This document shows, piece after piece, positions 13,054 through 43,589 of a stretch of DNA of 64,000 nt. Each line of letters starts with the position of its first letter. Positions within the stretch are counted from its first letter, which is position 1. Below the pieces are notes generated by a model. It ran no database searches and was not told the DNA's origin. It saw only the letters and a program-made list of their open reading frames with translations. Both the position numbers and the translations under genes were made by a program. The DNA is from Struthio camelus (lineage: Eukaryota > Chordata > Aves > Struthioniformes > Struthionidae): assembly GCF_040807025.1 (NCBI RefSeq), contig NC_090954.1, forward strand, positions 13,533,501 to 13,597,500, read 5' to 3'.

Positions 13054-16000
13054 TCCTAAAAATAGAAACACTTCTGTGCATGTGGTGGCTGGTGCCAAAA
13101 TACTCATAAGCTCTTAAAGTTTGTCCTAAACCCTTTGGCGATGCCGAAGGGGTGCTTTGCTACCCCCAAGTTCAGTTCAGGTTTGTGCAGTAATCGTTCA
13201 GCATGATGGATATTCCGCAGAGATACAGACTGAGCTTCTGAAAGGGGTTGCTTCGAGTGTGATGCTGTTTTTAACAGGGGGTTGAGAGGAAGATCTTGTA
13301 TACAGGGAAAAGCAAACTGTTGGGGTTAAGAGAAAGCTTATTTAATTGGAGAGCAAGTAGATTTGATGACTTCCCCCATCACCAGGAGCAACCCATACTT
13401 TGTTTTAAAAGTAGATTACTTATGTTTCTTGTGCAAGTCTTCTAAATCCTGTGAGCTTTCAGAGGAATCTCAAGCTGAAGACTCAGATTCTGGCTGACGT
13501 GCCCTAAGCTGGTGTCACAGACAGGAGGATAAAAGTGTTTATCGTTTAGCTTAGCTACAAAAGTAAAGAGTGTGCTTGGGCGAAATAGGTTTCCCAGTCA
13601 CATTACCACTCTTCCCACCACCACACCCACACCCCCCCCCCCCCCAAGTGCAGGAGTTAACAAATGTTTTACATCAGGTGCCAATCAGTCACTGTCAGAC
13701 AGGCAATGTGCTACAGGACCTGTATGCTTGGTGATAAGCATCCCATCTTTACCTCCTCAGGCTATTTGATGTCCTTCTCCTGTGCAGGAGCAGCATGCTC
13801 TTTACGTACGACGTACGACTCGTTTAGACGATTGTATGCTGAGTAAGCAAACTTCCCAGCCTGTTGAGCAGAGATGTTGGCAAATGAATGAAACGTTATG
13901 TTTGAGACCACAGTGTGTCTCGTAGTAAGTCAGGGCATGCCTGCAGAGGATTCCTGGGCTGCTTCAGCTGCCTGCTTGAGCAACAGGTCAACTGAAATGC
14001 TCGTCTTTCAGAAGACCCGCAGCCTTGTTAGCTCAAAGTCAAGTTATTCCAGCAGGTGAAGCTAGGCTAAGGCACAACTGTTACTGCAGAGTGACCCTGA
14101 TGCCTTCTGGAAAGTTGTTTATGTTGCAGAAAATGATACTGGTATTAAAGCAGGCACGAATTCTAGTTCGATAGAGTAGGGCATACTTGGTACTGACTTT
14201 TGGCTGAATGCTTTATCTTTTACTGTTAGTTGGTAATGATGCTGTTTAGATGAGATGATAGATACAGTGACAAGCTTATCTGCTTGTGGTAATTAAGCTT
14301 TCTGGAGTGCTTCTTATGAGACGCAACAGTGGAGCTGTGCCACGCGAGGAAGCTCTGGAAGCAAAACAAATTCTGTCTGGGCAATGAGGAAGACAATGTT
14401 AGTGAATAAAACTGACAGTGTGAGCATCCAGTAGAAGCGGTGCTTGCTTAGAGTTTAAGCACTGGAGTGCTGAATGTTCAAGTTGTTAAGGATGAGCCTG
14501 CAATTCATTTATTTATGCATGTATTTTACAAATAGCCTATCAATTTTATGTCAGTGATACTGTGGTTGGCTGATGACCCAAGTTCCTATGTGAAGGAAAG
14601 GCTAGGCTTAAAAGCGCTGGGTGTGTTAAGATTACTTCATCTAATCTGTATCAATGGCAATCCTTTAGAGGTAGGCTATACTGGCTAAGAAAATCCCTCC
14701 AATTGTTTTTATCCCTGTCCAAATCTAGAGGCAAAGTAGAAAAGGAAGAGCTGGCCCTTGCTGCTGAAGCACAAGAAGTTAGGGAATGACTGAACTGAGT
14801 GTTTTTGCGCAGTTGTTTACAACTTGTGTATCTAGGTCATGTTTTGTATTTTTTTTTATCATTTAATGACTTTGTTCTGTAGGGAAAAGGTTTTTAGTGT
14901 AAAGGATTGATGAGGGCAGCAGATAATCTTCACAGAAGATTAACAGAAGACGTGTAACAACTTGTATCGATGTAGGAATTGGTTTGTCGTGTGAATGTTG
15001 TGTGAGATGTGGGAGAATTTGCATGAGAAGTGTGAACTTCTCAGAGCAGTGTTTGACTAGTAGGTTGGAACAAGTTTCTAAATAAAATGTCAGCAGATCT
15101 GGGACAGTAGGGAAGTAGTGCTGTAGAGTCTCAGGTCTTGAAGCTACTTGACTGAAGACTTGAAGCACAGTTGCTGCCTTAGTGGTTGTGAAGTTACAAG
15201 TTACACGTGTAAAGCATGAGTCTTGATTTTGTTTGTTTGTTTTCTCATTTCCATTTGATCTCGGTTGTTAAATCTAAGTGGATTTACCTGCTGGGGGGAG
15301 GGGGGGGAAGAAAACAAAGGATTTTGAGGGATGAGACTTTATTTTGAACTACTGCCTTGTTGCATGCCTGTATTGTATTAAGCCACAATTTTTTTAACAG
15401 CTGCTTAAGATGATTCATTAGAGATATGAAATGGATATGTAAAGACCCATTCATTGGCTAGAAAGGTTACGGGTGCATCATGAATGACTTGCCACTTAAT
15501 GCTCAGATTTACTAGACTTAATTGAAGTAATACCATTTTATTGTAGTTCCAGATATTCTTGCAGGATTTCTAGAAATAATGACTGTGCATAAGAGCAGAC
15601 TAATGACATACCTACATTTCACCTTAAGTTCTGCCTTAATGCTATCTCTTTGTTTACCACTAGTTGTTAATGTTCTAGACGGCTTCATACAAATTCATTA
15701 TTGACAGTTCAGACGGTTATGTGCAGTGTTCCAGTTGTATTAGAGCAGGTAAATATTTGCATTAAAGACAGAAGAAGAAAAGATTTGACGTTATCAAGAC
15801 AGCCTATGGGATTGCACCGATAGTCAGTGTGAATGGCGAGAATAAGTAACGGAAACATACTTCCGTGTACTGCAGGCGAAGCACATGCATACGTACACGT
15901 TGCCAATTACATTTTATTTTTTGGAGCCCCTGTAGAACAGCATTGCGTTTAGGACGTAAATAGTTTCACATGCAAATCTCATCACTTTTTGTAATGGATG

Positions 16001-19000
16001 CTCTAATGGTGTTTCTTGACGAACGTTGTATTTTAATATACAGGAATTCAGACAGTTGAGTGTCGGTGATGTTTTGCACTTTGCTCGATAAGGAAGTTTA
16101 TTTCAAAACTACGCCTCCTGAGCCTCATTTAGTGAAATGCTGGGAGAAGTGCAGCTTAACAATTTCAAAAATGCTTTGAGATGCCCATATAGGTTACTGT
16201 ACATGTATTTGGTGCCTGTAAAAAGGTGCCGGATGAACATTAGAGAAGAAGCCGTCTGTCCAGGTAGCTGCTATTGCGCTGGTATTAGGCAGGACTGCTT
16301 GTCAATATTAATGGATTTAGGAAGCCCGTCTTTTCACCTCAAGCTTTGTCTGAAGTTCAAATATGAATCTACAGACTAGTAATTATAAATCAAAGGAGAC
16401 TCTGTGCATTGTGTTTATAGGTGAAGACTTTATAAAAGCCTGCTGCTGTACTTTTACCCGTATAATTTGGGAATTTCAGTTCCACAAAGCTGTAAACAAA
16501 CTGGAGAAAGAACCTTGCCTTGCCTTGCTGGCAGCTGGAGGCAAAGGCTAGACTAGTACAGAACACAGGACTATAAAGGTTGGAGGAGCTGCAGCAGCTG
16601 TTGACCGTTCAGCCAGGAATGTGTGCTAGATCAAATGGAGTTTCCTCACCATTAGGGTCCTCAGTTTTTTCTTTTGGTGAGGAAAAATGCAGTGGGTGAT
16701 CTGTTTGCCACAGAGGGCTGGAAAGGGGGACCTCGGTCAGCTTCGAGGAAGGTGGCTCCCATTGCCAGGGAGCAACAGCTCTTGCTGTCTCATTAGATAA
16801 TGGGATCAAAAAAAAAAAAGTTTGATTTTATGGGGATTGATTAAAACAGGAAGCAACACCAGAGGTGTTGCTGAAGGTGACCACTGAAGGTGTACAGCAA
16901 AGTAAAGATAAAATCTGTTAGTAGGTGTTTGCCAGTGTTGGCTATTACTGTGACTGCTCTGTCTTCTTGATTTCTAGAGCACCTTTTACTAATTAGTCAA
17001 TCATTAGCTTACTCTGAGTCTGTGAATGGCTAAGGCTTTTATAAGCAAAGTCTTTAAAAAAAACTGTGTTTTTTCTTATTATATGTCGATGTTACTACAG
17101 CGTATGCGACATTGGATATAAAAACACCACTTCTTGGGCTTACAAAAAAAAAAAAAAAAAGGGTCAGACTTGAGTATCTCAGTTAATTGGAGTTTGTGTG
17201 CTAACTCTTAAACGTGGCCAGCTGACCTCAGTTTACCCTTTTGAGTCCAGGTTTTGTAGGTGAACCTCTGTTTTCAGAGTACCCTCTAAATGCTGGTAAT
17301 AGGTGAGGTCTTCCTAGTGGAATCTAAAGAGCCTTTTGGATGACCAGAATATTCTGCTCAAAATCTATTTCTCTTGTTTCACAGAGATTTGCCAGACTGC
17401 CAGAATCCTCACAAAAGTGGGAAATCCTCAGTTGCCCTTTTTTTGGACCCTAAGGCCAGTCAGGGATGTCACACCTATTTACTCCTGTGTGGTTTGGGGT
17501 TTTTTTTTTTTGTTTGTTTGTTTTCTTCCTCTCCTGCCAGATGTATCCTATTCTGTTGGTTAATGATTATGTATGCCACATTCACTTCTGAAGTAAGCAC
17601 TAAAATGAGAGTGGATGGAGTTCTGAAGAAAAATGGAAGCTTCAAACTAAAATCTAAAATTTAAAATCTCTTTTAATAATATAAAGAGAGACTTGTCCTT
17701 GTTTCTTAATCTTTGTAAAGATCTTGATTACTTAGGCATCTATTAGAGCATTCAAGGCCTGATTTACTTCAAAGGAGTAACCTTGAATATATTCTAATTG
17801 TTATATGGCCCGTTAAACGGGATAGTTGAAAAGGGAAGCATTCAAGAATGTAGGAATGCTTATGGAGGAGCTCAGGTTAACCGGGAGTACTGCGTGTAGA
17901 AGTATATTTTTTAAATTAAATGAAGCTGGACACAAAGTCTGTTTTGGCTATTAAGAAAGTATCCATCAGCACCACTGCATCACACGCTAGTTTTTGAGCC
18001 TACAGCTGCGGTATTAAAATTTATTTATTGCCTATGCTCATCTACTTAAGTCTTCTTGTGGAACATATGTAATCGTTTAACAGATGTATCGACATATCTA
18101 AAAAATGACCTGGCAGTGGTCAACTGACTGGTGTATTGCCGGACTAGATCTCTTTTGTAACGAGCCAAGGGACAAACGGAGAAGCGGCAAGAGAATTGCT
18201 ACTGCCATACCAGCGATTGCTTCAGGTCTAATAACGCTGAAGCTTTCATACCTGCGTGTTGAGGCTGGTAAGCTGGTGCACGTTTAATAAAAGCAGCATT
18301 GCAATTTGTGTGTTGTGGAACTATGACTTGACTCTTTCAGAGGTCTAGTTTATAGATGTTTTAGCTAGCAAACTACTTGAAGAATTAAAAAGCTGTAAAG
18401 CATCTTGAAGAGATGCAGTTTGCCTCTATTGAGGAACATGCTATACTCTTACAAGGCTTTTTTAGGAAGTTCAAAGGAAAGTGTTGGTTTTTTTTGTTTT
18501 TTTTTTTTAATAAGGATTTTTTTTGAAAACATTGTGTGTATTGGCCAGTGCTGCCTACCTTAACTGGCCGGTTATGGGAGAATGCTAACACTGAATCTAA
18601 ACTGAAGAGAGTAATTTGAGCACTCAAATGTATTTTCCAGCCAGCTGTTACCTTGCAGTTAATAACAAGAGGTGGGTGATCTATATTTTAAGATATACTT
18701 CCCCCCCCGCCCCGAGGTTCTGCGCTTGCTGTCCATAATTTACAATATCACCGCAGATTAATTTTTTTCTTAAAGAAATTGTTTCTGCAGTAGTCTAAGC
18801 TGATCTAAGGGTTGGCTGCCCTGGGGCCATCCTTGCATGTGTCTCTGACAGCCAGCAGGTCTGTTGGCTCAGACTGCCCAGAAAGTGCAGCGCGGAAAGC
18901 TTTTTGGAATGAGCTTTTAATTTTGCTCTGGTTTTAAAACCTGCTTCTGATGAACAGCAATGAAGTAGTCTCTGAAACCAGTTCTTCAAAACAGTAGTGG

Positions 19001-22000
19001 CAGTTTGAGCTGCAAGTAACAGAACGATGTTACTTGGATTCTTTTCCCTAAACTTTATCTATCGATCTGTCTATCTGTCTGTCTATCTTCAGGTACAAAA
19101 CTGTAGAAGTCAAGGTTACGTAAGCTTGTTCATAGCTATTTTTCCATTTTCTGACTCGGTTTGCCTTTCGGTACAAAGGCTTGTATAGCAGTCATCTGGC
19201 AAACACAACTTCTTCAGCACTCCATGTGCTGTTTGGGGTGTGCTAGTGTTCTGCCTCTTCAGACCAAAATGTGGAAGCCACCCCAGTTTCTTTCTCCTTT
19301 CGAGCCGGACGGATCAGACTGCTACTTAAGGCTTCTGTGTTCTGCTTGCGCAGGGACGTGGTGTGGAGATGCGCTGTTCCTTCATCTCCTGAGCGTCAGA
19401 CGATGGCATTTGTGAGGGTGAGTGTCCCATATGTTTAACGGGGATTTTGGTCTCTGGCCTGTTCCCCTGCCCTGTTTCTGGGACTACTTCTGAGGCACTC
19501 ATTCTTCCAGCTTGATGGTTGGAGGGTTGCTGCTCCCTGCTCTTAAAACGCTAGCCTGGGGGACCCTCTGGCTTTAGCGTGAGGAGTTAGTTGTCTCGCT
19601 TCTTTTTCCTAGGAACGTTTTATTTGTGAATGATCAGTCTCTCCTCTTGAGTGAGGAAGGAAACTAGAGTAATCCAGGAAAACCAGAGAACTTCCTGAAG
19701 CCAGGTTGGGAGAATGGCTGGGCTGCCTTCCTCTGATCTGACAGCAGTGCCTCCCTGTGTGGTAACTTTGTGCTGTCGGCATGAGTAGCTTTCCAACTTC
19801 ATTTTGCAGTCTGGGCTAAGGTGTTCGTGTGTTTCTCGGTCACCAATTGTAGTGTCTCTAGGACCGTTTGGCTTCGGGTTCAGCTTTTAGATCAACTCTT
19901 AGCTTAATGATTTAAATAACGCATTTTAAAGGAATTCCTCTGAACAGCTGTAAAGCAAACGGCTCTTTCCATGTGATGCTATAAAAACCAAGCGTTAACA
20001 TGCGACACTAGTAGCAAAAAAAAAAATTAGTATTGCTAACTCCAGTTACCTTTAATGTACGCGATGGAGTATGGCAATTATTTCAAGTTCTCATTTTTCA
20101 AAGCAGACGCGTGCTTCTTGAAGCGCTAATCAACTTACCGTAAAGCAAACATTTTGCTAATTACACTTTTGCTAGTTTTACGAGTAATGCCAGGTATGCT
20201 TTGTCATGGGTAAAGACCCAGAAAGTCGGTCCTAAATGAGTGTGTAGTTCTAGTCTCTGCACTTCAACTAACATGACTCAAGTACCTCTTTCATGAATTC
20301 CCAGGTGCCTTTTTATATTTAATTACAAATTTGACTACAGCAACAGGTGGTTAAATTGGTCTGGTAGGAGCATCGTTTACCTTTTATACTGAAGAACAGA
20401 AGTTGTAGGAGTGGACTGTGTTTTGCGGCTGTAAGATCTAGTCTCCAGGTGCAAACAACTTCTTGCACTGCGTGCGATGTTAACTAGATTTGGATTTCCT
20501 CCCCTTAGACTCCGCTAGTCCGCGTACGCCTGTGGGAAGCTATTCCCTTCCTGGTTGTCAGGAAACATTGTGTGCGCGTTTGTTTGTGGCTGGTTTAAAA
20601 AACACTTGTCCTTGAGCCAAGTTTCAGAATGTTTCTTTTTCAGGTGTTGGAGTCCAGATAAATTTTAGAGAACAGTCGTATCTTTCCTTGGGTTTTGCCC
20701 TTTTAAACCAAAACGGTCAAGTTTCTGTATGGTCCTCTTACAAAACTATGGCTGCTAGCAGCAGTTAGAACTGTTCCCTGAAGTTGCAGGCAGAGAGCAC
20801 AGAGGGTAGTGCAGTGCAGCATGATTTTTCTGAGCAGTGTGCAGTGGAATGAAAGTTGCTGTTAGGTTCCAACGTTACCTTGCTGACTGCTGTTCCAATG
20901 TACGCGGTAAACTGTGAGATGCTCTTGATTTTTCCTTTTTTGATGGAAGTGAGAATTCTGAGCGTAACAAACGAGAACATAGAGAAGTAACGTTCACATA
21001 GAATCGAAAGATCATTCGGCAGGCGTTAAGACACCTTTATTTACAGCTCGTGGCCAGCTCAGATGCAACAGTTTGAGTAGCACGTAGATGAACGCAAGAT
21101 TTAAAATACATAGACTGCTGTGAGTTCTGCACTGAAAGTTGATGCCATCCCGTCAAGTCGTTTAATTCTCTGGATGTTGACGGTTTAACTTCAGTAGCCT
21201 GAGCTGTACCTCAATGAGGAAATGGTGATTTTTCACACCAGTAAGTGCAGTGAGCCATTGTGGAAAACCTGTCCACTGTTTTTATGTGCAGCCTTCCAAT
21301 GACTCTCCCTTCCCTCCTCGAAGGTCAGTACGGCCAAGATTGACGCTTTAGGATAAAAGAATAGACTACAAAGTGAGATTAACTATGAATGGTTCCTTAT
21401 GCACAAGTAATCCAATACCTTGCTTTTTACAATTATGCGCTAACTTCAGGAATCTGCACTCAAAAACACTGCAAGGAGTTGTAAGCAGTACTTGGAGCAT
21501 TAATTCCTTTACAAACTTCATTTTACTTTAGCAGGATTTTTTTTTTTTTTTATACAAGCCTGGTGAACCTTTGAGTACCTCCTGAAAGACTTAAAGCCCT
21601 TGGGTTAAGGAACGTTTAACGTATCTTTGTGGCACCTTATTTATTCACCGCAAGGATAGCGAGGGAGTAACGAGAGAAGCTCAACTCGAGATCCTGAAAT
21701 GCAAAGAATTTGACGTAATTGGTAGACTTCTGAGTCAGAAAGATTACTTCCCTCTGTTTCACGTATGGCCTGCCATGAATCTCCCCTAAATGATGTCATT
21801 CTATGAAATGAAATCTCTATATGTAAAACTTCTTTTTCCTTACAGCACAGTTTTTGAGTTTTAATGCTGCTGCTTGGATTAACCTTAAGAATGCTTGTAT
21901 TACTGCCATGCAATTGAGTTGACATATCTGCTTTCCTGTATTTCTACTTGTATGTGCTTATTTTTAAACGGATACCTTTGCAGTGTGACAGAATAACAAG

Positions 22001-22914
22001 CTTTAGAAAACCGGGAGTGAAAAGAGCATTCAATAGCCTATTGACGCTCAAGCTTCTATCAGTGAACTCCAGTTGCCCAGCTACTTGTTGATGATCGTTG
22101 CGTGAACTTATCAGAAAAAGAAGTTATGAATCTCCTGGGGGGGGGGGGGGGGAAGGAAGAGTGATGGTAAGATGATGTGGCAAATCATTTTGAGCTTTTC
22201 ATTTGTTGTCCTGTTAATGTCTATTATGTAATAGTAATTTTCAAATGTTGTCGTTCTGGCAGTGTTATGTTGGGGATGTGAGGCAGGAGGAGGAGCATAA
22301 CACTGGTCTAAACTGTTACATCAACCATTGAGTAACTGATACAAATCTATATAGCATCAGGCATCATTTGGCCTTCTGTGATAGGGTGGACTGAAAAACA
22401 GCAAGCATGAATGCACGCTGTCCTCACAAGACCAGGACCTGGAATTGCAGAGGAAAAGCTCTTAATTGCCTAGGGAGTGTCTCTAGCAAGCAATCCAGTC
22501 AGGTAAGTAGTAATTTTTGCTGTAGTTCTCATCTGTCGCGCTGGATGTCAATAAAGCTGTCTAGCTTTGATATCAAGTAAGACACCGTTGAACAATGAAA
22601 TTTGGTGTCTGCAACCTGCAAATGGTTTCACGTCTAAAACCAGGACCAGGCAGTTCACGCTCAAATTGTTCTCTTGAGCTTTTCTCCTATGTGCTATTTT
22701 GCTTGCGAGGAAGACTAGTTGGTTTTAGAACTCGGGGGACTGATGGTGTTTTGTTAGTCACGCTATGTCCCAACAGTTGACAAATACGATGTTGGGAAAT
22801 CCTGAACGTTGGTAGATTAAATTTTCCTACTGGAATATGAGGTTTAAAACATAGATTTGACTCCCTGTTATGACATCCCTGAGGCCTCTTACAGGAATTG
22901 TAGTTTTTAAAAGC

Positions 22915-22941
22915 TTGTTGTTGTTGTTGTTGTTGTTGTTG
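22915..22941 (+). repeat. (TTG)9 microsatellite, left arm
   Basis: Nine perfect TTG units followed by a T run. The mirror copy at 32,937-32,963 has the same nine units, so even a slippage-prone tract is equal in the two arms. Confidence 0.9.
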
Positions 22942-25900
22942 TTTTTTAAGGTCTCATGTGAGCTCTTGAAGGGTACTCTGAAAAATCCTGCTCCTCCTCA
23001 GGGATGAGTGTCCTGCAGACCACTGTTCCTCAGTTGCCCTTTAGGTAATGCATTCGTTCTCTCTGTAGCTCTGTGTGCTACAACTGTCTTCGTTGATCCA
23101 AAGAAGTTTTGATGACGTTAACTTGTTACGACTCTTAACACAGGCTATACTGCAGCTTCCACAAAGGGCGGGTCTGGCTAAGTTTTTTGTCTTCTTTTAA
23201 TTTGGGAAGCTGAAAACAACAATTTTTTCTGCTTTTTGCTACAGTACCTTTTCTGTATATGGGTATTATAAAACGTGCTTCATCAGAATTGTCTGGAAAA
23301 ACTCTATATAGGGAAACTTGAAATGCGTCTGTGTGCACAGACTTGTTCTACTGCTATCACGGTTCTTTACTTTGTGTTGAGAAAATAATTGCCTATGTGG
23401 TTCTTGTAACGTTCTGCAGCTTATCACAGAGGATGCTGAAAAGGACTACCTTCTGCGTTGAGGTGAATGGTTATTGGGAAGCCGCCCTGATGCTCAACTG
23501 CTGCAAAGAGCAGTTTCCGTTAGTAACTTGAACAGTGAAATTAAATCAATACTCTCTCCCTCCATGTAATAAGTTTTTTGGGCTGAATTTTGAGTTGGCC
23601 GATTGTAGTGGACTTTGTTCCCTCTCTAGAGGTGAACGGTAGAACTGTGCGTTCGGTCTAGCTCCAGCTGGTTACCTAAACCTATTCTAGCTTAAACATG
23701 AAACTCTTGTTCTTAGACCCTGTCAGTGTAGTTTATACTGTTTTATTTGGGAGAGAACTATGTTTTGAATAAAATAGTTTCCTAGCTGAGATGTAGCTGA
23801 AACTTGTTCTTTATGTTGCTGTTGTTGCATCATCATACTGTAGCTGTACTAGCGCAGCTAAATAGTATGACCTTTGTATAATTTCTAATTCCCTGCTCTT
23901 TCTGTCCATTTATGGAACTCTTTCAAAGTTACAGCCTTACAGAAGACCAAAAGTTTCTGACAGCTTTTTTCAAAGTGACTTTTCACGCCCCCTCCCCTCC
24001 CCGCCCCCACACAAAACCACCACCTTGCCCCAAGCCCACCTTATGAGAAGCAGGCAACTGTAACTGCCCTAACTAAGGGAACGCGTGCAAATGGGGAAGA
24101 AGGCCACAGCACTGGCTGGTTAAAACCTGAGCTTTTCTGTTGGAAAGCTTGGCAGGCATTATATCCGTGGTAGCTTAAAAGAGGATATGCCATAGCCAGA
24201 GATGCTGCACAGGAATCGACCAAGTCAGGACTGTGAAAGCGCTGCAATTGCCACTTAACTGTCACTTTATCTAAGCAATGTATTCTGTGAAGTGGAAAAA
24301 ACTTGTATTTAATGTAGCTGCTATCAAAAAGGCGATCGTTAGTAAAAGTGAATTGTTTGAAAGGCAGCCGTTTTAAAAAATGCCCTTAAGATTAGTCCAA
24401 AGGGAAAAATATGAAATACGAGATTTAAGACTGGCTATGAGCGAGAACAGTAGGGATGTTTCAGGAAATGGCTTTCTTCTAGCAGGCTTATTCTATCCCT
24501 GCTAACAAAACCAGTGTCGGTGGCCTAAATTTCACTGTTTGTCTCTGCGTTGGGATCCTATGGAAGAACCCACTCCTTTTACACAAACACTAGTAAAAGG
24601 AACTTCTTTTTAACTCTAAACGTTGCACTTATTTCTTACTAGTTTTGAGTTAACCAGGCAGACTTTTGATCTGTAACTTCCGTTATTGAATCGCTATTGT
24701 GATTATATCTTTGTTTGTTGCGTTTTGTTGTTTCTTGTGAAGTTCTCAGAGATCCTTTTAGAATACTTAGTAATTGAGAAAACAGTCGCTTGTGTACCAG
24801 AACTTTCTGAAGTACATCAGAACCGTTTTGAAGCAGTAATTCATTGTGGGCTTAGGTCATTAACTTAGGTGGTTACAGTGTTCCAAATACAAAAAATATG
24901 GAAGCTTCTGTCATACTGTCTCAGGGTATAAAAACTCCCAATCAGTTGTGCTGACCTCCCCTCCCTGCCACTTAGTCATCTCAAATGAAATTAATACTAA
25001 AGCTGTTTAATTCTTGAAAGCGCTGGAAAAGTTTGTGCAAATCCCCAATGGCTGGTGACACACAGGTTGGTTGGTTTGGCCAAAAAAAAATGTAACTTGG
25101 TTTATTTTCGAAAGAAAAATGCTGCATCAGTGAATGTCATTCTGGTATAGAAGCATTGTAGACTTTAGTGATGCAAACACATCCAAAATCTAGAGTTTTG
25201 CTTTTTTTTTTTTTTTTTTTTTTTAAAAAAAAAGATTGAAAGCTCTTTTTGAGGAGAAGACATATTGGCGACCACAAAATCAATGAACTGACCAACCAAA
25301 TCTCAAATTTTAAGGATGAACACTTGAATGGGACGCAGTTATTTTGATCAGAATTGGCTGACCTCCCTCCCCTTCCTTCCTCCCTGCCCCCGCAACTTTT
25401 AGTATAGACAAGGAAGGAACAGAAGACTCTCCTTTATAGGTGACTGTTCCTGTTCCCGGATATCGGAGACAGTATAAAATGAGCTGAGTCCTGCTAGCCT
25501 TAGCTGGAAGGGAATGAACAGCCAGGTATCATTTAACTGAACCACTGTGATTGATGCCTCTCAAGCTTTTATGGTCTCTGATATTGTCCGAGTGGTAGGT
25601 GGCACAGGCTTTGCAGGAGGATTCCAACTATTAGGAATATGTATGATAATTAGTGAAATCACGCAAACTGTATGTGTGGTGGTAATCATGGCCTGCTCCC
25701 GAACCACTTCTATAGCAGTTAATAGCACTAAAACTTTCTTTTTAAAATCTTCTGGGTGCTTAATTGATACGCTTATGCTCTTAACGAATATTGAGGAGTG
25801 AATGCAAATGGCAACATAGTTCTGCGGGTTCCCCCCCATCTGTAATGTGAAAGGTAAAAACCAACCAGCCCTTTGCATGAAGGATCCTGGCTACTGAATC

Positions 25901-28395: not shown

Positions 28396-28398
28396 CAT
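28368..28398 (-). repeat. 31 bp inverted repeat at the spacer/right-arm junction, second half
   Basis: Exact reverse complement of 28,057-28,087. Its last three bases (CAT, 28,396-28,398) are also the first three bases of the right arm, so the repeat and the arm overlap by 3 bp. Confidence 0.9.
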
Positions 28399-29030: not shown

Positions 29031-32000
29031 CTAGAAGAGACAGTTAGCTAATTGAAGACAAAAAAGGCTTCCCAATTTCCTGATTCATACTGATCAGGAA
29101 TGAAGAATCCCACCATTCTGACCTTACTAAAAAAAAAAAAAGCAAACAATTATTCAGATATTGCATTTATTTCAATGTGCAATGAAATGTACTTTGCCAT
29201 CTCAGGAGAGGGAGTAACGTGGAAGTATCACTCTTGAAAAGGATGCTTCTCATCACATGGTACCTTTGGTATGAGAAGCGACTTCAGGCACAAGCTGATG
29301 TTTAAAAACAGAGAAAGAGCAAGAAGGAAAACAAAAAAAAAGTTTCATTAAACATGCCAGCTTCTCTTTATTCATGAATATGCACTAGTAAACAGGAGAA
29401 ATCTGCATTTTGCACTTGCTTGGAAGGACAGAGATAGCAATTTGTTTTCTGACCAGCTGCAGCCAAGTAGCATTCTTGATTTTTGGGTCATTGCTCATCA
29501 GTATTGCTTCAAGTGAGGTCAAAGCAATTACAATTTCTTTTCCAAAGGGCATTAAGTATATTACATCAATTAAGAGTTTAGTGTTTAATCTTTTCTCTTT
29601 CCTCAGAAAGCATATATCTGCTTTTTTCCAGGTTCATTCTCTCAGCCATTCTTCACAGGCAAAAAACTTAATACAGATAAGGAAGTACTCCTGATGCATA
29701 ACAACTGCACTTACGGTTACATTCAAGATTAAATGCAGTCGGCAGATCTAGGAGCAAGTTGTGCGCGGAAAAACATACCAGAAAACCAACCAGCTCTTCA
29801 GGCAGGAAGAATTCTAGGACTGAAGTAGAATAGTTGTGGTGTTCCATTTTTAAGAATATCTATCTAGTATTGACATATGTATACGTATGTATGAAGTCAC
29901 ATGATAGCGTTAGGATTTCCAAGTATAATCATACTGAAATCTTCTTAGGAAGAATGTATTTTGAAAAACAGCTTTATGATTCAGTAGCCAGGATCCTTCA
30001 TGCAAAGGGCTGGTTGGTTTTTACCTTTCACATTACAGATGGGGGGGAACCCGCAGAACTATGTTGCCATTTGCATTCACTCCTCAATATTCGTTAAGAG
30101 CATAAGCGTATCAATTAAGCACCCAGAAGATTTTAAAAAGAAAGTTTTAGTGCTATTAACTGCTATAGAAGTGGTTCGGGAGCAGGCCATGATTACCACC
30201 ACACATACAGTTTGCGTGATTTCACTAATTATCATACATATTCCTAATAGTTGGAATCCTCCTGCAAAGCCTGTGCCACCTACCACTCGGACAATATCAG
30301 AGACCATAAAAGCTTGAGAGGCATCAATCACAGTGGTTCAGTTAAATGATACCTGGCTGTTCATTCCCTTCCAGCTAAGGCTAGCAGGACTCAGCTCATT
30401 TTATACTGTCTCCGATATCCGGGAACAGGAACAGTCACCTATAAAGGAGAGTCTTCTGTTCCTTCCTTGTCTATACTAAAAGTTGCGGGGGCAGGGAGGA
30501 AGGAAGGGGAGGGAGGTCAGCCAATTCTGATCAAAATAACTGCGTCCCATTCAAGTGTTCATCCTTAAAATTTGAGATTTGGTTGGTCAGTTCATTGATT
30601 TTGTGGTCGCCAATATGTCTTCTCCTCAAAAAGAGCTTTCAATCTTTTTTTTTAAAAAAAAAAAAAAAAAAAAAAAGCAAAACTCTAGATTTTGGATGTG
30701 TTTGCATCACTAAAGTCTACAATGCTTCTATACCAGAATGACATTCACTGATGCAGCATTTTTCTTTCGAAAATAAACCAAGTTACATTTTTTTTTGGCC
30801 AAACCAACCAACCTGTGTGTCACCAGCCATTGGGGATTTGCACAAACTTTTCCAGCGCTTTCAAGAATTAAACAGCTTTAGTATTAATTTCATTTGAGAT
30901 GACTAAGTGGCAGGGAGGGGAGGTCAGCACAACTGATTGGGAGTTTTTATACCCTGAGACAGTATGACAGAAGCTTCCATATTTTTTGTATTTGGAACAC
31001 TGTAACCACCTAAGTTAATGACCTAAGCCCACAATGAATTACTGCTTCAAAACGGTTCTGATGTACTTCAGAAAGTTCTGGTACACAAGCGACTGTTTTC
31101 TCAATTACTAAGTATTCTAAAAGGATCTCTGAGAACTTCACAAGAAACAACAAAACGCAACAAACAAAGATATAATCACAATAGCGATTCAATAACGGAA
31201 GTTACAGATCAAAAGTCTGCCTGGTTAACTCAAAACTAGTAAGAAATAAGTGCAACGTTTAGAGTTAAAAAGAAGTTCCTTTTACTAGTGTTTGTGTAAA
31301 AGGAGTGGGTTCTTCCATAGGATCCCAACGCAGAGACAAACAGTGAAATTTAGGCCACCGACACTGGTTTTGTTAGCAGGGATAGAATAAGCCTGCTAGA
31401 AGAAAGCCATTTCCTGAAACATCCCTACTGTTCTCGCTCATAGCCAGTCTTAAATCTCGTATTTCATATTTTTCCCTTTGGACTAATCTTAAGGGCATTT
31501 TTTAAAACGGCTGCCTTTCAAACAATTCACTTTTACTAACGATCGCCTTTTTGATAGCAGCTACATTAAATACAAGTTTTTTCCACTTCACAGAATACAT
31601 TGCTTAGATAAAGTGACAGTTAAGTGGCAATTGCAGCGCTTTCACAGTCCTGACTTGGTCGATTCCTGTGCAGCATCTCTGGCTATGGCATATCCTCTTT
31701 TAAGCTACCACGGATATAATGCCTGCCAAGCTTTCCAACAGAAAAGCTCAGGTTTTAACCAGCCAGTGCTGTGGCCTTCTTCCCCATTTGCACGCGTTCC
31801 CTTAGTTAGGGCAGTTACAGTTGCCTGCTTCTCATAAGGTGGGCTTGGGGCAAGGTGGTGGTTTTGTGTGGGGGCGGGGAGGGGAGGGGGCGTGAAAAGT
31901 CACTTTGAAAAAAGCTGTCAGAAACTTTTGGTCTTCTGTAAGGCTGTAACTTTGAAAGAGTTCCATAAATGGACAGAAAGAGCAGGGAATTAGAAATTAT

Positions 32001-32936
32001 ACAAAGGTCATACTATTTAGCTGCGCTAGTACAGCTACAGTATGATGATGCAACAACAGCAACATAAAGAACAAGTTTCAGCTACATCTCAGCTAGGAAA
32101 CTATTTTATTCAAAACATAGTTCTCTCCCAAATAAAACAGTATAAACTACACTGACAGGGTCTAAGAACAAGAGTTTCATGTTTAAGCTAGAATAGGTTT
32201 AGGTAACCAGCTGGAGCTAGACCGAACGCACAGTTCTACCGTTCACCTCTAGAGAGGGAACAAAGTCCACTACAATCGGCCAACTCAAAATTCAGCCCAA
32301 AAAACTTATTACATGGAGGGAGAGAGTATTGATTTAATTTCACTGTTCAAGTTACTAACGGAAACTGCTCTTTGCAGCAGTTGAGCATCAGGGCGGCTTC
32401 CCAATAACCATTCACCTCAACGCAGAAGGTAGTCCTTTTCAGCATCCTCTGTGATAAGCTGCAGAACGTTACAAGAACCACATAGGCAATTATTTTCTCA
32501 ACACAAAGTAAAGAACCGTGATAGCAGTAGAACAAGTCTGTGCACACAGACGCATTTCAAGTTTCCCTATATAGAGTTTTTCCAGACAATTCTGATGAAG
32601 CACGTTTTATAATACCCATATACAGAAAAGGTACTGTAGCAAAAAGCAGAAAAAATTGTTGTTTTCAGCTTCCCAAATTAAAAGAAGACAAAAAACTTAG
32701 CCAGACCCGCCCTTTGTGGAAGCTGCAGTATAGCCTGTGTTAAGAGTCGTAACAAGTTAACGTCATCAAAACTTCTTTGGATCAACGAAGACAGTTGTAG
32801 CACACAGAGCTACAGAGAGAACGAATGCATTACCTAAAGGGCAACTGAGGAACAGTGGTCTGCAGGACACTCATCCCTGAGGAGGAGCAGGATTTTTCAG
32901 AGTACCCTTCAAGAGCTCACATGAGACCTTAAAAAA

Positions 32937-32963
32937 CAACAACAACAACAACAACAACAACAA
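32937..32963 (-). repeat. (TTG)9 microsatellite, right arm copy
   Basis: Reads as nine CAA units on the plus strand and mirrors 22,915-22,941 exactly. Confidence 0.9.
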
Positions 32964-35900
32964 GCTTTTAAAAACTACAATTCCTGTAAGAGGCCTCAGG
33001 GATGTCATAACAGGGAGTCAAATCTATGTTTTAAACCTCATATTCCAGTAGGAAAATTTAATCTACCAACGTTCAGGATTTCCCAACATCGTATTTGTCA
33101 ACTGTTGGGACATAGCGTGACTAACAAAACACCATCAGTCCCCCGAGTTCTAAAACCAACTAGTCTTCCTCGCAAGCAAAATAGCACATAGGAGAAAAGC
33201 TCAAGAGAACAATTTGAGCGTGAACTGCCTGGTCCTGGTTTTAGACGTGAAACCATTTGCAGGTTGCAGACACCAAATTTCATTGTTCAACGGTGTCTTA
33301 CTTGATATCAAAGCTAGACAGCTTTATTGACATCCAGCGCGACAGATGAGAACTACAGCAAAAATTACTACTTACCTGACTGGATTGCTTGCTAGAGACA
33401 CTCCCTAGGCAATTAAGAGCTTTTCCTCTGCAATTCCAGGTCCTGGTCTTGTGAGGACAGCGTGCATTCATGCTTGCTGTTTTTCAGTCCACCCTATCAC
33501 AGAAGGCCAAATGATGCCTGATGCTATATAGATTTGTATCAGTTACTCAATGGTTGATGTAACAGTTTAGACCAGTGTTATGCTCCTCCTCCTGCCTCAC
33601 ATCCCCAACATAACACTGCCAGAACGACAACATTTGAAAATTACTATTACATAATAGACATTAACAGGACAACAAATGAAAAGCTCAAAATGATTTGCCA
33701 CATCATCTTACCATCACTCTTCCTTCCCCCCCCCCCCCCCCCAGGAGATTCATAACTTCTTTTTCTGATAAGTTCACGCAACGATCATCAACAAGTAGCT
33801 GGGCAACTGGAGTTCACTGATAGAAGCTTGAGCGTCAATAGGCTATTGAATGCTCTTTTCACTCCCGGTTTTCTAAAGCTTGTTATTCTGTCACACTGCA
33901 AAGGTATCCGTTTAAAAATAAGCACATACAAGTAGAAATACAGGAAAGCAGATATGTCAACTCAATTGCATGGCAGTAATACAAGCATTCTTAAGGTTAA
34001 TCCAAGCAGCAGCATTAAAACTCAAAAACTGTGCTGTAAGGAAAAAGAAGTTTTACATATAGAGATTTCATTTCATAGAATGACATCATTTAGGGGAGAT
34101 TCATGGCAGGCCATACGTGAAACAGAGGGAAGTAATCTTTCTGACTCAGAAGTCTACCAATTACGTCAAATTCTTTGCATTTCAGGATCTCGAGTTGAGC
34201 TTCTCTCGTTACTCCCTCGCTATCCTTGCGGTGAATAAATAAGGTGCCACAAAGATACGTTAAACGTTCCTTAACCCAAGGGCTTTAAGTCTTTCAGGAG
34301 GTACTCAAAGGTTCACCAGGCTTGTATAAAAAAAAAAAAAAATCCTGCTAAAGTAAAATGAAGTTTGTAAAGGAATTAATGCTCCAAGTACTGCTTACAA
34401 CTCCTTGCAGTGTTTTTGAGTGCAGATTCCTGAAGTTAGCGCATAATTGTAAAAAGCAAGGTATTGGATTACTTGTGCATAAGGAACCATTCATAGTTAA
34501 TCTCACTTTGTAGTCTATTCTTTTATCCTAAAGCGTCAATCTTGGCCGTACTGACCTTCGAGGAGGGAAGGGAGAGTCATTGGAAGGCTGCACATAAAAA
34601 CAGTGGACAGGTTTTCCACAATGGCTCACTGCACTTACTGGTGTGAAAAATCACCATTTCCTCATTGAGGTACAGCTCAGGCTACTGAAGTTAAACCGTC
34701 AACATCCAGAGAATTAAACGACTTGACGGGATGGCATCAACTTTCAGTGCAGAACTCACAGCAGTCTATGTATTTTAAATCTTGCGTTCATCTACGTGCT
34801 ACTCAAACTGTTGCATCTGAGCTGGCCACGAGCTGTAAATAAAGGTGTCTTAACGCCTGCCGAATGATCTTTCGATTCTATGTGAACGTTACTTCTCTAT
34901 GTTCTCGTTTGTTACGCTCAGAATTCTCACTTCCATCAAAAAAGGAAAAATCAAGAGCATCTCACAGTTTACCGCGTACATTGGAACAGCAGTCAGCAAG
35001 GTAACGTTGGAACCTAACAGCAACTTTCATTCCACTGCACACTGCTCAGAAAAATCATGCTGCACTGCACTACCCTCTGTGCTCTCTGCCTGCAACTTCA
35101 GGGAACAGTTCTAACTGCTGCTAGCAGCCATAGTTTTGTAAGAGGACCATACAGAAACTTGACCGTTTTGGTTTAAAAGGGCAAAACCCAAGGAAAGATA
35201 CGACTGTTCTCTAAAATTTATCTGGACTCCAACACCTGAAAAAGAAACATTCTGAAACTTGGCTCAAGGACAAGTGTTTTTTAAACCAGCCACAAACAAA
35301 CGCGCACACAATGTTTCCTGACAACCAGGAAGGGAATAGCTTCCCACAGGCGTACGCGGACTAGCGGAGTCTAAGGGGAGGAAATCCAAATCTAGTTAAC
35401 ATCGCACGCAGTGCAAGAAGTTGTTTGCACCTGGAGACTAGATCTTACAGCCGCAAAACACAGTCCACTCCTACAACTTCTGTTCTTCAGTATAAAAGGT
35501 AAACGATGCTCCTACCAGACCAATTTAACCACCTGTTGCTGTAGTCAAATTTGTAATTAAATATAAAAAGGCACCTGGGAATTCATGAAAGAGGTACTTG
35601 AGTCATGTTAGTTGAAGTGCAGAGACTAGAACTACACACTCATTTAGGACCGACTTTCTGGGTCTTTACCCATGACAAAGCATACCTGGCATTACTCGTA
35701 AAACTAGCAAAAGTGTAATTAGCAAAATGTTTGCTTTACGGTAAGTTGATTAGCGCTTCAAGAAGCACGCGTCTGCTTTGAAAAATGAGAACTTGAAATA
35801 ATTGCCATACTCCATCGCGTACATTAAAGGTAACTGGAGTTAGCAATACTAATTTTTTTTTTTGCTACTAGTGTCGCATGTTAACGCTTGGTTTTTATAG

Positions 35901-38900
35901 CATCACATGGAAAGAGCCGTTTGCTTTACAGCTGTTCAGAGGAATTCCTTTAAAATGCGTTATTTAAATCATTAAGCTAAGAGTTGATCTAAAAGCTGAA
36001 CCCGAAGCCAAACGGTCCTAGAGACACTACAATTGGTGACCGAGAAACACACGAACACCTTAGCCCAGACTGCAAAATGAAGTTGGAAAGCTACTCATGC
36101 CGACAGCACAAAGTTACCACACAGGGAGGCACTGCTGTCAGATCAGAGGAAGGCAGCCCAGCCATTCTCCCAACCTGGCTTCAGGAAGTTCTCTGGTTTT
36201 CCTGGATTACTCTAGTTTCCTTCCTCACTCAAGAGGAGAGACTGATCATTCACAAATAAAACGTTCCTAGGAAAAAGAAGCGAGACAACTAACTCCTCAC
36301 GCTAAAGCCAGAGGGTCCCCCAGGCTAGCGTTTTAAGAGCAGGGAGCAGCAACCCTCCAACCATCAAGCTGGAAGAATGAGTGCCTCAGAAGTAGTCCCA
36401 GAAACAGGGCAGGGGAACAGGCCAGAGACCAAAATCCCCGTTAAACATATGGGACACTCACCCTCACAAATGCCATCGTCTGACGCTCAGGAGATGAAGG
36501 AACAGCGCATCTCCACACCACGTCCCTGCGCAAGCAGAACACAGAAGCCTTAAGTAGCAGTCTGATCCGTCCGGCTCGAAAGGAGAAAGAAACTGGGGTG
36601 GCTTCCACATTTTGGTCTGAAGAGGCAGAACACTAGCACACCCCAAACAGCACATGGAGTGCTGAAGAAGTTGTGTTTGCCAGATGACTGCTATACAAGC
36701 CTTTGTACCGAAAGGCAAACCGAGTCAGAAAATGGAAAAATAGCTATGAACAAGCTTACGTAACCTTGACTTCTACAGTTTTGTACCTGAAGATAGACAG
36801 ACAGATAGACAGATCGATAGATAAAGTTTAGGGAAAAGAATCCAAGTAACATCGTTCTGTTACTTGCAGCTCAAACTGCCACTACTGTTTTGAAGAACTG
36901 GTTTCAGAGACTACTTCATTGCTGTTCATCAGAAGCAGGTTTTAAAACCAGAGCAAAATTAAAAGCTCATTCCAAAAAGCTTTCCGCGCTGCACTTTCTG
37001 GGCAGTCTGAGCCAACAGACCTGCTGGCTGTCAGAGACACATGCAAGGATGGCCCCAGGGCAGCCAACCCTTAGATCAGCTTAGACTACTGCAGAAACAA
37101 TTTCTTTAAGAAAAAAATTAATCTGCAGTGATATTGTAAATTATGGACAGCAAGCGCAGAACCTCGGGGCGGGGGGGGAAGTATATCTTAAAATATAGAT
37201 CACCCACCTCTTGTTATTAACTGCAAGGTAACAGCTGGCTGGAAAATACATTTGAGTGCTCAAATTACTCTCTTCAGTTTAGATTCAGTGTTAGCATTCT
37301 CCCATAACCGGCCAGTTAAGGTAGGCAGCACTGGCCAATACACACAATGTTTTCAAAAAAATCCTTATTAAAAAAAAAACAAAAAAAACACAACACTTTC
37401 CTTTGAACTTCCTAAAAAAGCCTTGTAAGAGTATAGCATGTTCCTCAATAGAGGCAAACTCCATCTCTTCAAGATGCTTTACAGCTTTTTAATTCTTCAA
37501 GTAGTTTGCTAGCTAAAACATCTATAAACTAGACCTCTGAAAGAGTCAGGTCATAGTTCCACAACACACAAATTGCAATGCTGCTTTTATTAAACGTGCA
37601 CCAGCTTACCAGCCTCAACACGCAGGTATGAAAGCTTCAGCGTTATTAGACCTGAAGCAATCGCTGGTATGGCAGTAGCAATTCTCTTGCCGCTTCTCCG
37701 TTTGTCCCTTGGCTCGTTACAAAAGAGATCTAGTCCGGCAATACACCAGTCAGTTGACCACTGCCAGGTCATTTTTTAGATATGTCGATACATCTGTTAA
37801 ACGATTACATATGTTCCACAAGAAGACTTAAGTAGATGAGCATAGGCAATAAATAAATTTTAATACCGCAGCTGTAGGCTCAAAAACTAGCGTGTGATGC
37901 AGTGGTGCTGATGGATACTTTCTTAATAGCCAAAACAGACTTTGTGTCCAGCTTCATTTAATTTAAAAAATATACTTCTACACGCAGTACTCCCGGTTAA
38001 CCTGAGATCCTCCATAAGCATTCCTACATTCTTGAATGCTTCCCTTTTCAACTATCCCGTTTAACGGGCCATATAACAATTAGAATATATTCAAGGTTAC
38101 TCCTTTGAAGTAAATCAGGCCTTGAATGCTCTAATAGATGCCTAAGTAATCAAGATCTTTACAAAGATTAAGAAACAAGGACAAGTCTCTCTTTATATTA
38201 TTAAAAGAGATTTTAAATTTTAGATTTTAGTTTGAAGCTTCCATTTTTCTTCAGAACTCCATCCACTCTCATTTTAGTGCTTACTTCAGAAGTGAATGTG
38301 GCATACATAATCATTAACCAACAGAATAGGATACATCTGGCAGGAGAGGAAGAAAACAAACAAACAAAAAAAAAAAACCAAACCACACAGGAGTAAATAG
38401 GTGTGACATCCCTGACTGGCCTTAGGGTCCAAAAAAAGGGCAACTGAGGATTTCCCACTTTTGTGAGGTTTCTGGCAGTCTGGCAAATCTCTGTGAAACA
38501 AGAGAAATAGATTTTGAGCAGAATATTCTGGTCATCCAAAAGGCTCTTTAGATTCCACTAGGAAGACCTCACCTATTACCAGCATTTAGAGGGTACTCTG
38601 AAAACAGAGGTTCACCTACAAAACCTGGACTCAAAAGGGTAAACTGAGGTCAGCTGGCCACGTTTAAGAGTTAGCACACAAACTCCAATTAACTGAGATA
38701 CTCAAGTCTGACCCTTTTTTTTTTTTTTAGTAAGCCCAAGAAGTGGTGTTTTTATATCCAATGTCGCATACGCTGTAGTAACATCGACATATAATAAGAA
38801 AAAACACAGTTTTTTAAAGACTTTGCTTATAAAAGCCTTAGCCATTCACAGACTCAGAGTAAGCTAATGATTGACTAATTAGTAAAAGGTGCTCTAGAAA

Positions 38901-41900
38901 TCAAGAAGACAGAGCAGTCACAGTAATAGCCAACACTGGCAAACACCTACTAACAGATTTTATCTTTACTTTGCTGTACACCTTCAGTGGTCACCTTCAG
39001 CAACACCTCTGGTGTTGCTTCCTGTTTTAATCAATCCCCATAAAATCAAACTTTTTTTTTTTTGATCCCATTATCTAATGAGACAGCAAGAGCTGTTGCT
39101 CCCTGGCAATGGGAGCCACCTTCCTCGAAGCTGACCGAGGTCCCCCTTTCCAGCCCTCTGTGGCAAACAGATCACCCACTGCATTTTTCCTCACCAAAAG
39201 AAAAAACTGAGGACCCTAATGGTGAGGAAACTCCATTTGATCTAGCACACATTCCTGGCTGAACGGTCAACAGCTGCTGCAGCTCCTCCAACCTTTATAG
39301 TCCTGTGTTCTGTACTAGTCTAGCCTTTGCCTCCAGCTGCCAGCAAGGCAAGGCAAGGTTCTTTCTCCAGTTTGTTTACAGCTCTGTGGAACTGAAATTC
39401 CCAAATTATACGGGTAGAAGTACAGCAGCAGGCTTTTATAAAGTCTTCACCTATAAACACAATGCACAGAGTCTCCTTTGATTTATAATTACTAGTCTGT
39501 AGATTCATATTTGAACTTCAGACAAAGCTTGAGGTGAAAAGACAGTCTTCCTAAATCCATTAATATTGACAAGCAGTCCTGCCTAATACCAGCGCAATAG
39601 CAGCTACCTGGACAGATGGCTTCTTCTCTAATGTTCATCCGGCACCTTTTTACAGGCACCAAATACATGTACAGTAACCTATATGGGCATCTCAAAGCAT
39701 TTTTGAAATTGTTAAGCTGCACTTCTCCCAGCATTTCACTAAATGAGGCTCAGGAGGCGTAGTTTTGAAATAAACTTCCTTATCGAGCAAAGTGCAAAAC
39801 ATCACCGACACTCAACTCTCTGAATTCCTGTATATTAAAATACAACGTTCGTCAAGAAACACCATTAGAGCATCCATTACAAAAAGTGATGAGATTTGCA
39901 TGTGAAACTATTTACGTCCTAAACGCAATGCTGTTCTACAGGGGCTCCAAAAAATAAAATGTAATTGGCAACGTGTACGTATGCATGTGCTTCGCCTGCA
40001 GTACACGGAAGTATGTTTCCGTTACTTATTCTCGCCATTCACACTGACTATCGGTGCAATCCCATAGGCTGTCTTGATAACGTCAAATCTTTTCTTCTTC
40101 TGTCTTTAATGCAAATATTTACCTGCTCTAATACAACTGGAACACTGCACATAACCGTCTGAACTGTCAATAATGAATTTGTATGAAGCCGTCTAGAACA
40201 TTAACAACTAGTGGTAAACAAAGAGATAGCATTAAGGCAGAACTTAAGGTGAAATGTAGGTATGTCATTAGTCTGCTCTTATGCACAGTCATTATTTCTA
40301 GAAATCCTGCAAGAATATCTGGAACTACAATAAAGTGGTATTATTTCAATTAAGTCTAGTAAATCTGAGCATTAAGTGGCAAGTCATTCATGATGCACCT
40401 GTAACCTTTCTAGCCAATGAATGGGTCTTTACATATCCATTTCATATCTCTAATGAATCATCTTAAGCAGCTGTTAAAAAAATTGTGGCTTAATACAATA
40501 CAGGCATGCAACAAGGCAGTAGTTCAAAATAAAGTCTCATCCCTCAAAATCCTTTGTTTTCTTCCCCCCTCCCCCCCCCAGCAGGTAAATCCACTTAGAT
40601 TTAACAACCGAGATCAAATGGAAATGAGAAAACAAACAAACAAAATCAAGACTCATGCTTTACACGTGTAACTTGTAACTTCACAACCACTAAGGCAGCA
40701 ACTGTGCTTCAAGTCTTCAGTCAAGTAGCTTCAAGACCTGAGACTCTACAGCACTACTTCCCTACTGTCCCAGATCTGCTGACATTTTATTTAGAAACTT
40801 GTTCCAACCTACTAGTCAAACACTGCTCTGAGAAGTTCACACTTCTCATGCAAATTCTCCCACATCTCACACAACATTCACACGACAAACCAATTCCTAC
40901 ATCGATACAAGTTGTTACACGTCTTCTGTTAATCTTCTGTGAAGATTATCTGCTGCCCTCATCAATCCTTTACACTAAAAACCTTTTTCCTACAGAACAA
41001 AGTCATTAAATGATAAAAAAAATACAAAACATGACCTAGATACACAAGTTGTAAGCAACTGCGCAAAAACACTCAGTTCAGTCATTCCCTAACTTCTTGT
41101 GCTTCAGCAGCAAGGGCCAGCTCTTCCTTTTCTACTTTGCCTCTAGATTTGGACAGGGATAAAAACAATTGGAGGGATTTTCTTAGCCAGTATAGCCTAC
41201 CTCTAAAGGATTGCCATTGATACAGATTAGATGAAGTAATCTTAACACACCCAGCGCTTTTAAGCCTAGCCTTTCCTTCACATAGGAACTTGGGTCATCA
41301 GCCAACCACAGTATCACTGACATAAAATTGATAGGCTATTTGTAAAATACATGCATAAATAAATGAATTGCAGGCTCATCCTTAACAACTTGAACATTCA
41401 GCACTCCAGTGCTTAAACTCTAAGCAAGCACCGCTTCTACTGGATGCTCACACTGTCAGTTTTATTCACTAACATTGTCTTCCTCATTGCCCAGACAGAA
41501 TTTGTTTTGCTTCCAGAGCTTCCTCGCGTGGCACAGCTCCACTGTTGCGTCTCATAAGAAGCACTCCAGAAAGCTTAATTACCACAAGCAGATAGGCTTG
41601 TCACTGTATCTATCATCTCATCTAAACAGCATCATTACCAACTAACAGTAAAAGATAAAGCATTCAGCCAAAAGTCAGTACCAAGTATGCCCTACTCTAT
41701 CGAACTAGAATTCGTGCCTGCTTTAATACCAGTATCATTTTCTGCAACATAAACAACTTTCCAGAAGGCATCAGGGTCACTCTGCAGTAACAGTTGTACC
41801 TTAGCCTAGCTTCACCTGCTGGAATAACTTGACTTTGAGCTAACAAGGCTGCGGGTCTTCTGAAAGACGAGCATTTCAGTTGACCTGTTGCTCAAGCAGG

Positions 41901-42999
41901 CAGCTGAAGCAGCCCAGGAATCCTCTGCAGGCATGCCCTGACTTACTACGAGACACACTGTGGTCTCAAACATAACGTTTCATTCATTTGCCAACATCTC
42001 TGCTCAACAGGCTGGGAAGTTTGCTTACTCAGCATACAATCGTCTAAACGAGACGAGTCGTACGTCGTACGTAAAGAGCATGCTGCTCCTGCACAGGAGA
42101 AGGACATCAAATAGCCTGAGGAGGTAAAGATGGGATGCTTATCACCAAGCATACAGGTCCTGTAGCACATTGCCTGTCTGACAGTGACTGATTGGCACCT
42201 GATTTAAAACATTTGTTAACTCCTGCACTTGGGGGGGGGGGGGGGAGGGGGGTGTGGTGGTGGGAAGAGTGGTAATGTGACTGGGAAACCTATTTCGCCC
42301 AAGCACACTCTTTACTTTTGTAGCTAAGCTAAACGATAAACACTTTTATCCTCCTGTCTGTGACACCAGCTTAGGGCACGTCAGTCAGAATCTGAGTCTT
42401 CAGCTTGAGATTCCTCTGAAAGCTCACAGGATTTAGAAGACTTGCACAAGAAACATAAGTAATCTACTTTTAAAACAAAGTATGGGTTGCTCCTGGTGAT
42501 GGGGGAAGTCATCAAATCTACTTGCTCTCCAATTAAATAAGCTTTCTCTTAACCCCAACAGTTTGCTTTTCCCTGTATACAAGATCTTCCTCTCAACCCC
42601 CTGTTAAAAACAGCATCACACTCGAAGCAACCCCTTTCAGAAGCTCAGTCTGTATCTCTGCGGAATATCCATCATGCTGAACGATTACTGCACAAACCTG
42701 AACTGAACTTGGGGGTAGCAAAGCATCCCTTCGGCATCGCCAAAGGGTTTAGGACAAACTTTAAGAGCTTATGAGTATTTTGGCACCAGCCACCACATGC
42801 ACAGAAGTGTTTCTATTTATGCTATTACTAAAAATTTAGGCTAAAGAAAAAAGACATTTCTAACCACACCCAATCATATTAACTTCTAGTTAGCAATGTT
42901 CACTTAGGCAGCATAGCAAATCCTATTTTAACTTCTCTTTCAAGCATTGATTCATAGGCTCAAAGGGGTTCGAAAGGTACTCAAGTCTCTAGTTGTTAC

Positions 43000-43470: not shown

Positions 43471-43589
43471 CCGGCAGGCTTCATCCACTTTAGGCACTTC
43501 TTTTAAGCAAGAGTCAGACTTCCGCTAAGCTGAAGCTCAATCAGCTGCAATTTCCCTCTCTAACACTAGTCCAATCTTCTCAGAAAACA

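Follow-up and report, generated by a model that had tools for sequence, protein, structure and literature searches.

A large palindrome in the ostrich genome probably arose as a fold-back inverted duplication on what is likewise probably an autosome, its arms having later been trimmed by deletions and its inner arms homogenised by gene conversion or by assembly. It lies in a window of 64,000 nucleotides, the whole stretch of DNA that was analysed (C13:13533501-13597500), and its relatives were sought in the 1.45-Gb, 262-contig assembly to which that window belongs.

Geometry of the palindrome and of its centre

Self-BLAST of the window returned a single minus-strand alignment, of 13060-27482 with 42818-28396, spanning 14,433 columns at 99.688% identity with 25 mismatches and 11 gap openings; its bit score was 25,794, against a maximum of 47.3 in 20 first-order Markov shuffles. 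The initial annotation had described a 14.4-kb inverted repeat with a coordinate sum of 55,878, and both its coordinates and this sum proved exact. In large palindromes the mirror-oriented arms reach a length of about 8 kb or more and an identity of 99% or more; here the arms measure 14.4 kb at 99.69% identity, and the part left unduplicated between them is short, consisting of a 280-bp loop and a 574-bp block found on one arm. Homology between the arms extends outward to 11031 on the left and 45129 on the right, interrupted where one arm or the other has lost 1.6 or 1.85 kb. The repeat is thus larger and less symmetric than first described, and the duplicated, mirror-oriented stretch amounts to approximately 17 to 19 kb (Table 1).

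Table 1. Features of the palindrome and its surroundings (positions in the window)
Feature	Position	Strand	Evidence and remarks
RPS14, four coding exons	3572-3721, ~4655-4813, ~5456-5533, 6294-6359	+	tblastn, 96-100% per exon; GT-AG bounds
G-rich degenerate tandem repeat	8366-11023	.	TRF, self-BLAST; ends 8 bp from the palindrome's left limit
Segment X, left (outermost)	11031-11413	+	pairs with 44740-45129; 96.9%, 5 mismatches, one 7-bp gap
D1, left arm only, 1,597 bp	11414-13010	+	portion 12597-13020 lies between X and D2 in the C5 relative
Segment Y, left	13011-13058	+	pairs with 44669-44721; 83-85%, partly a poly-T run
Left arm core	13060-27482	+	self-BLAST; 35 of 36 difference blocks in 13060-18752; 18753-27482 free of substitutions
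Left-only block, 574 bp	27483-28056	+	absent from the right arm; ATG common to both sides of the joint
Innermost left 31 bp	28057-28087	+	exact reverse complement of 28368-28398
True loop, 280 bp	28088-28367	.	no unusual self-folding, z = +1.14
Innermost right 31 bp	28368-28398	-	28367/28368 is the fold-back junction; 3-bp overlap with the right core
Right arm core	28396-42818	-	self-BLAST
D2, right arm only, 1,850 bp	42819-44668	-	outer part (from 44169) found in the C5 relative
Right Y (44669-44721) and right X (44740-45129)	44669-45129	-	self-BLAST; 18-bp filler between them
Right outer extension	45130-46255	-	part to 45322 and GC-rich 45962-46255 match C5 and C198 at ~65-73%
SH3 exon	~57005-57160	.	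similar to DNMBP (solved structure, E 2.5e-10); Pfam SH3 scores below cut-offs

The centre had been read as a 913-bp spacer, but 28057-28087 returns exactly at 28368-28398, and the real loop is therefore the 280 bp at 28088-28367; the remainder of the supposed spacer is the 574-bp left-only block together with the 31-bp arm pieces that flank the loop. When 28057-28398 is folded as a single strand, the 31-bp ends pair, as they must, and the loop alone is unremarkable. The 574-bp block is also present in relatives of the arm on contigs C5 and C11 and was therefore lost from the right arm.

The outer flanks, likewise, are not simply different, as had been stated, in that segments X and Y pair outside the core, but the flanks beyond these segments do differ, with RPS14 on one side and the SH3 exon on the other. 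The two copies are unequally complete: the right copy is the fuller outside, reaching ~46255 against a left limit of 11031, and the left copy is the fuller inside. No counterpart of the right extension 45130-46255 was found on the left side. One of the 10-mers in the 18-bp filler between right Y and right X is repeated adjacent to the filler.

Linear relatives and a proposed order of events

One linear relative of the arm lies at C5:14919808-14941376 and carries, in this order, a CpG-rich stretch, X, part of D1, part of D2, the arm, the 574-bp block, the 31 bp and the loop; additional sequence found only on C5 lies between its matches to 15664 and 17204, and also at 22340. Beyond the end of the loop, C5 (14941376 to ~14945000) and C11 (20967555 to ~20973100) remain alike, and this likeness implies that the C13 joint at 28367/28368 is the derived state relative to the linear C5 copy. 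The joint, derived as judged from these three copies, is the strongest evidence for a fold-back here.

Queried with the inner segment 22344-27400, the genome gave two matches on C13, one on C5 (86%) and six pieces on C11 (73-80%), as well as nine short ones (30 to 49 bases) on further contigs, which share a single short stretch of the query. The C11 pieces belong to a third relative of the inner arm segment (C11:20960972-20973162), which parallels C5 past the C13 joint. The query 18800-24000, matching up to 22340, found at least 34 places on C5 (8.56-14.93 Mb, 75-81%) and one each on C56 and C11, counts that are lower bounds because the best 39 of 80 candidates were scored. For the D2/X stretch, the best 40 of 2,106 candidates were scored, and the matches listed among these lie on C5, on C11 and on C198, where three copies stand 34 kb apart. 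On C5, an array related to the outer part of the arm occupies 5.9-14.9 Mb, in both orientations and at a spacing of ~0.1 to 0.8 Mb. Contig C198 (91,635 bp) consists of ~34-kb tandem units that are 99.97% alike and carry the outer segment of the arm together with CR1-like elements; one of its reading frames has a weak HEAT-repeat match (17.9 bits, cut-off 23.5), which we take to be MROH-like, and a long frame with a reverse transcriptase domain (RVT_1) is presumably a CR1 element.

Counted per aligned base, the divergence of the left copy from that at the C5 edge amounts to 9.9-11.3% in its inner part and 17-25% in its outer part, and its inner part is 17-18% divergent from C11. When the C198 copies are compared along with that of the C5 edge, the outer half of the C13 copy shows 17-26% divergence. 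Compared with this divergence between C13 and C5, that between the arms (1.3% in X and 0.4% in the outer core) is low, which suggests that the fold-back probably happened long after the C13 and C5 copies had separated.

The linear relative also bears on what each arm has lost. It holds 12597-13020 of D1 and D2 from 44169 outward, so that these portions, at least, were lost from the right and the left arm respectively; the C5 comparison supports these losses for the parts that C5 holds, and the route of repair is one that we infer. The stretch 42379-44168 is absent from the C5 and C198 relatives, and its inner 440 bp pair with 13060-13499 on the left; it is probably an acquisition of C13 that predates the fold-back. 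The interior of D2 at 42994-43565 is a dispersed repeat, with copies 79-85% identical on C1, C2, C3, C8 and C20, and a CR1-like relic lies at 43588-43672. The idea that D2 is one simple inserted repeat was rejected, as its outer part exists in the C5 relative, although a dispersed repeat lies inside it. A protein search with one reading frame of D2 gave four candidates, none with E <= 1.

These comparisons suggest the following order of events. The starting point would have been one copy, on C13, of a segment akin to the edge of the C5 amplified region, as the order on C5 indicates. A break or a stalled strand at 28367 would then have folded back, with copying restarted at the complement of 28087; the junction itself is present in the sequence, the priming is presumed, and no priming repeat at 28367 was seen in the printed sequence by eye. 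Copying from the fold-back would have produced a second, mirror copy around the 280-bp loop. Later end-joining deletions may have removed from the right arm both the 574 bp by the loop, where the ATG is shared, and D1, where the filler and its repeated 10-mer stand, and a later deletion would have removed D2 from the left arm. Afterwards, the outer 5.7 kb of the core would have gathered differences on both arms, and in the inner 8.7 kb, where substitutions are lacking, one arm would, most simply, have been copied over the other by recent gene conversion. If conversion did homogenise the inner arms, the 574-bp deletion beside the loop either escaped it or is younger. The earlier reading of a large and highly identical inverted duplication stands, and is corrected as regards the size of the spacer and the plain description of the flanks; the membership of the arms in a dispersed family, part of it amplified on C5, lay beyond its view.

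Differences between the arms and the reliability of the assembly

The differences between the arms are distributed very unevenly. Of the 36 difference blocks in the core, 35 fall within 13152-18752; the remaining block, nearer the centre at 22137, is a single-base difference inside a run of G. We counted 23 substitutions. Left out of this number are three single bases in the poly-T run at 18489-18498, two multi-base blocks (at 13631 and 17144) and differences that are gaps alone; two substitutions in low-complexity runs, at 13629 and 15299, are included. All 23 lie at 13152-18752, and the inner 8.7 kb (18753-27482) has none; if they were placed uniformly, the chance of an empty inner stretch of 8,730 bp would be 1.2e-8. 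The rates are 23 in 5,693 bp (0.4%) for the outer core and 5 in 383 bp (1.3%) for X, which differs by 3% with gaps included, and the arms differ by 15-17% in Y, a short segment that is partly a poly-T run.

Polarisation by BLAST alignments, with C5 or C198 as outgroup, was possible for 18 of the 23 substitutions, and assigned 13 derived states to the left arm and 5 to the right (two-sided binomial p = 0.096), or 12 and 5 if the left-derived site 15471, at which C5 and C198 conflict, is omitted. Ten of the polarised changes run from A/T to G/C and five in the reverse direction. The initial annotation had held that the arm differences argue for real DNA, and it is upheld by these derived changes on both sides and by the composition of the counted substitutions (16 transitions and 7 transversions); judging from the alignments, each arm seems to have mutated independently.

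The absence of substitutions in the inner arms could, however, have another origin, in which two real inverted paralogous copies exist and the reads of one of them were used for the centre and for both inner stretches of 8.7 kb, making the identity, and perhaps the head-to-head joint as well, a product of assembly. The change at 18752 is abrupt, from 0.4% to no substitutions at all, and the identical inner part of ~18.4 kb (2 x 8.7 kb and the centre) is comparable to long-read lengths, from which it follows that an assembler could have produced the identity. A study of zebra finch, hummingbird and platypus reports false chimeric PacBio palindromic sequence of read length (7-17 kbp) in reference assemblies (PMC9516828), and amplified DNA also reportedly yields artificial palindromes (PMC6218980). 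A simple fold-back read, on the other hand, would yield neither a 574-bp block on one arm nor the 31-bp return beyond it, and the block exists in C5 and C11. We consider this origin of the inner identity less probable than gene conversion following a fold-back.

That the entire palindrome is a fold-back or haplotype misassembly is very improbable. The 0.4% divergence of the outer arms is of the order of heterozygosity, given as 0.95/0.34/0.22% in a table row whose column heads are partly lost in the available text (PMC9516828), and artificial long-read palindromes resemble this one in having mirror arms of read-length scale. The C13 palindrome differs from them in its unequal arms, in the different ancestral blocks lost from each, with the right arm reaching ~46255 and the left ending at 11031, and in its two distinct flanks, one on the RPS14 side and the other on the SH3-exon side; moreover, X differs by 3% with gaps.

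Gene content, chromosomal context and comparison with known palindromes

The gene RPS14 is complete and lies 4.7 kb outside the palindrome, with the G-rich tandem repeat in between. A special link between gene and palindrome is not supported, and RPS14 looks like a bystander. Within the G-rich repeat, 9167-9667 resembles C5 14925728-14926231 (79.6%), and the repeat shows a strong strand asymmetry (GC skew 0.55 at 8001-10000). On the other side, the gene to which the SH3 exon belongs is presumably ARHGEF37; 20 other reading frames of the right flank gave no Pfam family at E 0.05. CSNK1A1 was rejected as a gene of the window, its sole match being 13 residues at E 3.7, as was PPARGC1B for the two pieces tried, which gave no match. 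An Rfam search over the window found nothing at gathering scores, and a tRNA-Arg prediction at 1748-1842 overlaps a GC-rich tandem repeat. CpG-rich stretches at 45962-46310, common to the C5 and C198 relatives, and at 1200-2600 are possible promoters.

None of the 17 left-arm reading frames scanned reached a Pfam cut-off. The best frame alignments contain a stop in 15 of the 25 listed against C5 and in 15 of the 25 listed against C11, the rest being open, and these stops make it unlikely that the arm frames are coding. Maintenance of the palindrome by selection, for example through a testis-expressed arm transcript as on sex chromosomes, is for both reasons scarcely credible, even though the outer half falls in part within an amplified family, one that also has a CpG-rich stretch, and testis-expressed amplicons are known in chicken (PMC9974502). 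The palindrome is probably a neutral rearrangement, with no sign of a cellular function seen in its sequence.

Among the seven matches to human DMRT1, five, including the best, are on C41 and two on C8, with none on C13 or C5. The best matches being on C41, neither C13 nor C5 is the DMRT1-bearing Z; C41 is likely to be the Z, and C13, which bears RPS14, is probably an autosome. The possibility that C5 is the Z, with an amplicon array of the chicken type, was rejected, as C5 is without a DMRT1 match.

The large palindromes in the literature cited here are mostly sex-chromosomal. The duck W carries 38 palindromes of 15.2-345.5 kb, and none was found on the emu W (PMC7787181); in the white-throated sparrow, a palindrome that bears signs of conversion is reported for the W (PMC3403216); and palindrome P6 of the human Y shows multi-kb conversion tracts and rare inversions (PMC3723533). 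A limited literature search found no survey of autosomal palindromes in birds, which is no proof of absence. The C13 palindrome resembles those of sex chromosomes (P1-P8 of the human Y and those of bird W) in its inverted arms of more than 99% identity, its short spacer and an identity that is uneven along the arm, which would fit multi-kb conversion tracts. It is unlike them in being probably autosomal, with arms of 14-19 kb, no gene recognised and unequal deletions, and its conversion is deduced from one assembly.

Fold-back inverted duplications arising from breaks are alike in having a linear relative, a mirror copy that starts a few hundred bases back and a short loop; the C13 case differs in being interstitial, with both flanks, rather than terminal, and in that no priming repeat was seen by eye. 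In yeast, breaks near inverted repeats give rise to inverted duplications, with fold-back priming as the model (PMC10622511). Bird segmental duplications and ampliconic arrays are comparable in that one outer-arm segment recurs at no fewer than 34 places on C5 and a related stretch lies in the 34-kb tandem units of C198, but the C13 copy is mirrored rather than tandem, its outer half departing by 17-26% from the copies on C198 and at the C5 edge, and its inner half by 10-11% from the latter.

According to a review, the risk posed by palindromes rises with longer and more alike arms and with shorter spacers, and an inverted-repeat pair spaced 280 bp apart is stable in wild-type yeast (PMC7999016). 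On these grounds, the trimmed centre and 280-bp loop of the C13 palindrome would fit a tolerated palindrome. We tentatively propose a fuller picture, in which a young autosomal palindrome was seeded by a stray copy from the edge of an array, folded back, had its centre trimmed asymmetrically, which would reduce its capacity for cruciform extrusion, and now has inner arms that are converting, all without a sex chromosome.

The C13 palindrome is most likely a known kind of rearrangement with an unusually readable history. The presence of a linear relative in the same genome makes the order of events readable, from the turn of the strand through the pieces lost from each arm to the likeness that remains. 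If the inner identity is a product of assembly, the palindrome would be a warning case for long-read assemblies; as a probably autosomal case, it would bear on whether conversion of inner arms and trimming of the centre occur without sex linkage.
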